Source of the DNA: Citrifermentans bemidjiense Bem | Lineage (GTDB): Bacteria; Desulfobacterota; Desulfuromonadia; Geobacterales; Geobacteraceae | NCBI RefSeq assembly: GCF_000020725.1 | Contig: NC_011146.1 | Span: 744,001 to 808,000 of the forward strand | Length of the DNA stretch: 64,000 nt | Reading direction: 5' to 3' | In this document: piece after piece, positions 28,743 through 29,737 of the stretch | How positions within the stretch are numbered: the first letter of the stretch is position 1 | Layout of the letters: every line of letters starts with the position of its first letter | Program-made: the position numbers and the translations under genes | Notes under the pieces: generated by a model | What the model saw: only the letters and a program-made list of their open reading frames with translations | Databases searched by the model: none | What the model was told of the DNA's origin: nothing

Positions 28743-28851
28743 CCCCCCTCCCTTGACGGGAGGGGGACGGGGGGTGGGTGAAGCTGCAACGTACGGAAAT
28801 GGTGGCACCTTTCCCCACCCCCTAACCCCCTCCCGCAAGGGGAGGGGGAAC
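28743..28851. repeat. Composite GC-rich palindromic repeat (type C)
   Basis: Two inverted repeats, CCCCCTCCC-TTGAC-GGGAGGGGG (28744-28766) and CCCCCTCCCGC-AAGGGGAGGGGG (28827-28849), joined by GGGTGGGTGAAGC and CCCCACCCCCTAACC. Nearly the same arrangement as 13645-13749. Confidence 0.85.
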
Positions 28852-28887
28852 CAAGAGCGGCTTTCCCCGGTATATTTCGATGACCCC

Positions 28888-28921
28888 AAAAAAAGGGGGC
28901 TCTCAGGAGCCCCCTTTTTTT
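28888..28921. terminator. Bidirectional terminator
   Basis: AAAAAAAGGGGGCTC-loop-GAGCCCCCTTTTTT with T-runs on both strands, between the GGDEF/EAL gene (plus) and the small zinc-ribbon gene (minus). Confidence 0.9.
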
Positions 28922-29063
28922 ATTCGCCGCAGCCGCACCCTTTGTTTTTGGGGTCGAGCGGGGTTTTCTTGCCGCACTTCTGGCACCGCCAGAAGAGGCC
29001 GCCTCAACCGGGTATCAGCACCATGAGCCCCTGGCATTCGGGGCACTCTTGTTCGTTTTTCAT
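28920..29063 (-). CDS. Small zinc-ribbon protein with in-frame UGA: candidate selenoprotein
   Basis: Starting at ATG 29063, preceded by AAAAGGAG, the frame reads 19 codons (MKNEQECPECQGLMVLIPG) to a TGA at 29004-29006. It then continues without interruption for 27 more codons (beginning GGLFWRCQKCGKK, ending NKGCGCGE) to a TAA next to the terminator. The two halves each supply one CxxC knuckle (CPEC and CQKC), so only the full 47-residue product makes a complete zinc ribbon. A perfect 8-bp hairpin with a GGU loop lies 8 nt after the UGA, matching the geometry of bacterial SECIS elements. Alternatives are a nonsense mutation or a sequence error. A conventional caller would show a 19-aa fragment or nothing. 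Confidence 0.6.
28977..28995 (-). promoter_or_regulatory. SECIS-like hairpin downstream of the in-frame UGA
   Basis: On the minus strand CTTCTGGC-GGT-GCCAGAAG forms an 8-bp perfect stem with a GGU triloop. The GGU begins 17 nt after the UGA. Bacterial SECIS elements sit within the coding sequence just after the UGA, with a short stem and a conserved G (often GGU) in the apical loop roughly 16-37 nt away. Confidence 0.55.
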
Positions 29064-29080
29064 TCGATTCTCCTTTTTAT

Positions 29081-29737
29081 TTATTTGACCGAGACCTGCA
29101 GTCTCCCCACTTGGGTAATTTCGGCGACGACGCTGTCCCCGCTTTTTATCGGGCCGACGCCGGCCGGTGTGCCGGTCAGCACCAGGTCGCCCGGCTCCAG
29201 GGTGAAGATGGAGGAGAGGTAGGAGATGAGCTCCGGGATGCGGTGGATCATGAGGCCGGTCGAGCCGTCCTGCCGCTTGACCCCGTTGACGCTGAGCGTG
29301 ATGGTGAGCGCCTGCGGGTCGGCCACAGCACCTGCCGGCACGAAGTCGGAGAGGGGGCAGGCGGTGTCGAACCCCTTGGCGATCTCCCAAGGGAGCCCCT
29401 TTTTCTTCTGCTCCGCCTGCACGTCCCTGAGGGTCAGGTCGATGGCTACGCCGTACCCGGCCAGGTGGCCTAACGCCTCAGCGGGAGGGATATCGCTCCC
29501 GCCGGTGCCGATCAAAAGCGCCAGCTCCGCCTCGTGGTGGCAGTCGCTGGAGTAGGGGGGGATCACGATCTCTTCCCCTTCGCCGATGACGCTGGAGGCC
29601 GGCTTCATGAAGATCACCGGGCGTTCCGGGGTCTCGTTCCCCAGTTCCTTGATGTGGTCCGCGTAGTTCCTCCCGATGCAGAGGATCTTGCCGATCCGAT
29701 ACTCTTTTGCTTCTCCCTTGACCCTTGCCGTCTTCAT
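29081..29737 (-). CDS. Fumarylacetoacetate hydrolase (FAH) family protein
   Basis: A 218-residue FAH-fold enzyme. It has the family pattern ILCIGRNYADHIKELGN, the metal-binding HHEAELALLIG (Glu pair), a conserved DLTLRDVQ and the terminal LEPGDLVLTGTPAGVG. Members hydrolyse or decarboxylate 2-oxo acids, such as acylpyruvate hydrolase or oxaloacetate decarboxylase; the substrate is not determined. ATG 29737 follows GAGGAG; the longer reading upstream is non-conserved. It is downstream of the thi/radical SAM genes and upstream of the zinc-ribbon gene on the same strand. Confidence 0.88.
   Translation of the reverse strand: MKTARVKGEAKEYRIGKILCIGRNYADHIKELGNETPERPVIFMKPASSVIGEGEEIVIPPYSSDCHHEAELALLIGTGGSDIPPAEALGHLAGYGVAIDLTLRDVQAEQKKKGLPWEIAKGFDTACPLSDFVPAGAVADPQALTITLSVNGVKRQDGSTGLMIHRIPELISYLSSIFTLEPGDLVLTGTPAGVGPIKSGDSVVAEITQVGRLQVSVK

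Follow-up and report, generated by a model that had tools for sequence, protein, structure and literature searches.

Selenoproteins of very small size, in which selenocysteine (Sec) lies between two CxxC motifs, have been brought together in the dual-CXXC family described by the model NF041197. In the portion of a 2026 review table (PMC13188914) that deals with this model, OS_HP3 with an RxU motif and hypothetical protein DW with a GxU motif are entered, and a PGU form is not. OS_HP3 is characterized by its small size, by the spacing C-x2-C-x9-[UC]-x6-C-x2-C, by a column occupied by Sec or Cys and, in many of the Sec-containing members, by a SECIS-like hairpin past the UGA. DW, reported by the authors of deep-Sep (PMC12013277) and listed as NF041197, has the same dual-CXXC spacing around Sec. 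The deep-Sep authors state that their method may lose selenoproteins without Cys homologues (PMC12013277), so that Sec-only families, such as the one described here, may be systematically overlooked. For bacterial SECIS elements the same review, in its part on the bSECIS model, sets constraints on loop size, stem length, the presence of a loop G, spacing and minimum free energy (MFE) (PMC13188914).

In this work we have analyzed a locus of Citrifermentans bemidjiense Bem lying in a stretch of 64,000 nt (contig NC_011146.1, positions 744,001 to 808,000; hereafter the window). It encodes a PGU-type protein, which apparently represents a third, Sec-only subtype of the dual-CXXC small (seleno)protein family beside RxU and GxU, and not a new fold.

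Organization of the locus and its place in the dual-CXXC family

On the minus strand, the ORF 29063-28920 is preceded by a good ribosome-binding site and interrupted by exactly one in-frame TGA. Its read-through product of 47 residues is MKNEQECPECQGLMVLIPGUGGLFWRCQKCGKKTPLDPKNKGCGCGE. The perfect hairpin CTTCTGGC-GGT-GCCAGAAG (28995-28977; loop GGU in the RNA) is situated inside the coding sequence, 8 nt 3′ of the TGA. An earlier note on this DNA had described the frame with TGA at codon 20, the CPEC and CQKC knuckles united only by read-through, and an 8-bp hairpin with a GGU loop starting 8 nt past the TGA; all of these were confirmed from the sequence, every element being found where it had been placed (Table 1). 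The ORF has very probably been missed by annotation owing to the use of UGA for selenocysteine.

Table 1 Features of the PGU selenoprotein locus (coordinates of the window)
Feature	Position	Strand	Basis
Predicted PGU-type dual-CXXC selenoprotein CDS, 47 aa, ATG to TAA through TGA	28920..29063	-	sequence; homologues with the same TGA
Start codon ATG	29063-29061	-	sequence
Shine-Dalgarno AAGGAG	29070..29075	-	sequence; similar sites 5′ of the start in relatives
TGA, codon 20, almost certainly read as selenocysteine	29004..29006	-	invariant in all 45 loci with organism records and all 47 matching genomes of the class
Putative bacterial SECIS: 8-bp stem, GGU apical loop at 28987-28985, TGA-to-loop distance 16 nt	28977..28995	-	folding; no synonymous change; fits the bSECIS model
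First predicted metal-binding knuckle CPEC	29034..29045	-	both Cys invariant
Second predicted metal-binding knuckle CQKC	28974..28985	-	invariant
C-terminal tail GCGCGE with conserved CxC	28923..28940	-	C45 invariant, C43 in at least 90%
Stop codon TAA	28922-28920	-	sequence
Intrinsic-terminator-like hairpin and T-run 3′ of the gene	~28888..28914	-	sequence
FAH-family (FAHD1/YcgM-type) gene, directly upstream, probable operon partner	29081..29737	-	PF01557 and NF007967 matches; adjoins in 40 of 46 loci

The view of the earlier note that no selenoprotein family of this shape had been described did not hold, since NF041197 (OS_HP3, DW) has the same spacing, which is common to the PGU, RxU and GxU types. 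The match of the window protein to NF041197 (25.2 bits, E 1.3e-5) lies below the curated cut-off of 40 bits, as do those of all 27 PGU members tested, among which the window protein had the best E-value. A phylum-wide search with NF041197 revealed two kinds of relatives, RxU, with Sec or Cys at the column, and GxU. Profile comparison of PGU by hhalign gave E 3.2e-10 (probability 96.7) against RxU and E 1.8e-05 against GxU, which supports homology. An intermediate motif, FWRCKECG, is present in two of the RxU members (L092 and L093), and the column homologous to codon 20 is occupied by Sec or Cys in the sister subtypes at identical spacing. The PGU proteins are distinguished by the motif P-G-U-G-G-L-F-W-R-C-Q-K-C-G and a C-terminal CxC, whereas OS_HP3 has RxU and an acidic tail ending in CDRx; Cys forms were found for OS_HP3 and not for PGU. 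The GxU proteins differ from PGU in the motif, in the C-terminal region, in their occurrence in other lineages of the phylum and in the existence of a Cys form (L077); judged by the motif alone, the GxU loci found here probably correspond to the DW group. PGU is a well-supported selenoprotein subtype lying beneath the cut-offs of current family models. The GxU-type dual-CXXC selenoproteins (L072-L091) are common in the phylum, often encoded in the same genome as RxU, and also below the NF041197 cut-off; they may merit a model of their own.

Conservation of the TGA codon and of the hairpin

The ORF was found in 32 of the 58 relatives searched, representing three families of the Geobacterales and 13 of 24 genera, and in all 32 matches codon 20 is the single in-frame TGA. 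With a profile, 47 matches were obtained among 244 genomes of the class, all of them from this order and carrying the TGA. When 84,980 species genomes were scanned, one of the patterns used (FWRCQKC) matching whatever is encoded at codon 20, 45 loci with organism records were recovered, each of them with TGA; they come from Citrifermentans, Geomonas, Trichlorobacter, Oryzomonas, Geotalea, Geomobilimonas, Geobacter sp. and one Methylomirabilota metagenome-assembled genome (MAG). No sense codon at codon 20 was found in the PGU subtype, either in the 45 loci with organism records or in the 47 genomes of the class, nor was there a Cys form of the subtype among the homologues found. It had been proposed earlier that conservation of the TGA, or its alternation with TGC, would argue for Sec, and that an ordinary codon such as Gly or Arg at this position in a homologue without the hairpin would argue against it. 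The TGA is present in every homologue of the subtype, alternation with TGC is seen between subtypes only and not within PGU, and an ordinary codon without the hairpin occurs in no homologue of the subtype. Within the family, three weak matches without the TGA (G001, G024 and G352) were rejected, as they are not dual-CXXC homologues of the PGU type.

The gene is absent from many Geobacteraceae and is therefore dispensable there. In 19 relatives that have the adjacent FAH-family gene and no selenoprotein gene, no Cys or sense-codon version was found behind the FAH gene, which indicates that the gene was lost and not substituted. A search of eight species in one sibling genus did not find the gene either; should the usual Geobacter model strains belong to this genus, its absence would help to explain how the gene escaped earlier surveys. 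The MAG of Candidatus Methylomirabilota encodes a divergent relative, GDUGGSFWRCQKCG (L138, ~4395), in which the TGA and the same stem are kept, possibly as a result of horizontal transfer or of a deeper origin. In the copy of Geotalea toluenoxydans (L140, ~6056) 1 nt is deleted directly past the TGA and the hairpin is intact; the deletion reflects recent decay or an assembly error.

Taken on its own, the hairpin is only mildly unusual. It forms part of the predicted minimum-energy structure (-26.3 kcal/mol; z -1.88 versus shuffles), and a perfect hairpin of at least 8 bp is found in the same position range after 6 of the 1705 TGA triplets of the window, several of these hairpins being terminator-like. 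Since the significance of the single-sequence fold is weak and other TGAs are followed by such hairpins, the case for a selenoprotein rests on comparison. The GGU loop with its loop G, the 8-bp stem, the 16-nt spacing and the MFE of -19.0 kcal/mol (42 nt past the TGA) conform to all published bSECIS constraints, as had been suggested earlier from the size and distance of the hairpin. A low-threshold Rfam search gave chance matches only, none of them to a SECIS family at the hairpin, and the best scores fell on the palindromic repeat described below.

Across 31 distinct coding sequences the synonymous substitution rate (dS) is 0.00 over codons +3 to +9, the seven codons spanned by the hairpin, compared with 1.06 5′ of the TGA, 0.94 in the pair of glycine codons that follows and 1.66 from +10 to the end, where dN/dS is 0.31. 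The synonymously frozen stretch thus coincides with the hairpin, and the ratio past the hairpin shows that purifying selection also acts on the peptide encoded 3′ of the TGA. All five degenerate columns in the hairpin (+4 and +6 to +9) are codon-invariant in 38 loci; the FAH gene beside it in these loci, which serves as a control of equal relatedness, has 66 columns with an invariant degenerate amino acid, and just 1 of them keeps to a single codon. The only departures in the hairpin region are CAC at +3 (L115) and, in the Methylomirabilota relative, TCC at +3 and CGT at +6 in the loop. All of them lie outside the stem, which is intact. The stem sequence is invariant across the loci of the PGU subtype and hence without compensatory changes. 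Such an invariant hairpin within a coding sequence provides a clean natural example of SECIS constraint on codons.

Decoding of the UGA codon

The genome of C. bemidjiense encodes selA and selD, the latter with an in-frame TGA of its own. Each of the 58 relatives has selB and a tRNA-Sec, the latter scoring over the family cut-off in 56 of them, and the presence of SelB in every sampled relative leaves no SelB-free genome for comparison. Absence of the Sec machinery, which the earlier note had regarded as decisive against its proposal, is contradicted by the presence of selA, selB, selD and tRNA-Sec. In the proposed mechanism UGA codon 20 would be decoded by SelB and tRNA-Sec under the direction of the 8-bp GGU hairpin 8 nt downstream. 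In the sequences compared, the TGA, the hairpin at the nucleotide level, the read-through peptide and the gene pair are conserved, and we consider it almost certain from this comparison that the codon is read as Sec in the PGU subtype. The main proposal of the earlier note, a new selenoprotein with a SECIS element, has thereby gained strong support from the conserved TGA, the frozen hairpin, purifying selection and the Sec machinery.

If the UGA were a true stop, only a peptide of 19 residues would be made and the hairpin would be a regulatory RNA, an attenuator or an mRNA-stability structure, of which conservation at the nucleotide level is likewise expected. The protein, however, is conserved beyond the hairpin, with dN/dS well below one at high dS, C30 and G31 invariant and the C-terminal CxC conserved; moreover, the two CxxC motifs can form one zinc ribbon only by read-through, and sister families have Cys and no stop at the same column, all of which makes termination at this codon very improbable. 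Decoding by a near-cognate tRNA or other recoding would insert a standard residue, e.g. Trp or Cys, and it is true that clear selection on the read-through peptide, taken alone, leaves the identity of the inserted residue unspecified. We nevertheless find such decoding highly unlikely, given the frozen hairpin that fits the bSECIS model, the full Sec machinery, the occurrence of Sec or Cys at the homologous column of the sister subtypes and a TGA never exchanged for a sense codon in the 45 loci with organism records. A pseudogene or sequencing error, in favor of which the deletion in the G. toluenoxydans copy could be cited, is refuted to the point of negligible probability by conservation, since dozens of independent genomes share the TGA together with an unbroken frame, a Shine-Dalgarno sequence and purifying selection, which bears out the earlier remark that the rest of the coding sequence is undamaged, unlike an old pseudogene.

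Predicted structure and the FAH-family neighbor

An AlphaFold2 model of moderate confidence (27 sequences; mean pLDDT 76.9, pTM 0.52) predicts strands at 13-19 and 22-27 that form a beta-hairpin, its turn containing Sec. The two CxxC knuckles are placed on this fold in the manner of a zinc ribbon, and the top Foldseek matches in the PDB are zinc ribbons, with E-values above 0.1; together with the conservation of the knuckles this supports the assignment as a zinc ribbon made in the earlier note. Generic zinc ribbons (ZifS TTHA0897, Rpb9/RPC11, the topoisomerase I C4 ribbon; PF07191, PF13453) share the beta-hairpin and two CxxC knuckles, but they have no Sec and score weakly in both sequence and structure. 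The two knuckles would hold one metal, as a zinc ribbon or a rubredoxin-like knuckle pair, and Sec would lie in the P-G-U-G-G turn, followed by the C-terminal CxC tail.

The protein would most likely be a small redox protein, in which the selenol reacts at the tip of the hairpin and is resolved by the C-terminal cysteines, and we regard a redox role as fairly probable. Alternatively, Sec could be a metal or substrate ligand and the protein a metal chaperone or an accessory subunit of the FAH enzyme, which would agree with the zinc-ribbon architecture and with linkage to a gene of the FAH family, whose enzymes are metal-dependent. Against such a role, which we judge unlikely, four of 46 loci have no FAH gene adjoining the selenoprotein gene within the DNA compared, and redox functions are thought to be typical of most selenoproteins (PMC13188914).

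The FAH-family gene ends 17 nt before the selenoprotein start; its product matches PF01557 and exceeds the cut-off of NF007967 (PRK10691). Of 46 loci, 40 have this gene immediately 5′ of the selenoprotein gene; in the remainder it lies ~1 kb away once, a contig edge intervenes once, and four have no FAH gene nearby. All 32 relatives with the selenoprotein gene have the FAH gene, the seven relatives without FAH also lack the selenoprotein gene, and 19 have FAH alone; shared ancestry confounds this co-occurrence. Oxaloacetate tautomerase activity has been assigned to E. coli YcgM and to other FAHD proteins (PMC10825186), and FAHD genes have been reported to cluster with L2HGDH/D2HGDH genes, a selenoprotein partner not being mentioned in the passages of that paper bearing on these clusters. 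FAHD1/YcgM is kin to the neighboring gene and not a homologue of the selenoprotein. The upstream gene likely encodes an oxaloacetate-repair enzyme.

The selenoprotein gene is probably co-transcribed with this FAHD1/YcgM-type gene, and its product may serve or protect the enzyme; the conserved neighbor thus offers a concrete hypothesis for the task of the selenium zinc ribbon, and the functional link itself is put forward tentatively, as possible rather than probable. As YcgM/FAHD proteins are oxaloacetate tautomerases, a tie of the selenoprotein to TCA-cycle metabolite repair is plausible by analogy. The most specific version, in which an obligate-Sec zinc ribbon without a Cys form is the dedicated partner of an FAHD1-type oxaloacetate tautomerase, seems quite unlikely to us; if true, the repair of TCA-cycle metabolites in the Geobacter order would have a branch that depends on selenium.

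A short distance past the terminator, a 121-bp palindromic repeat (28745-28865) resembles a REP/MITE-type interspersed element. It gave 47 matches, at about 40 distinct places, in a search of its own genome and is the source of spurious microRNA matches in Rfam.
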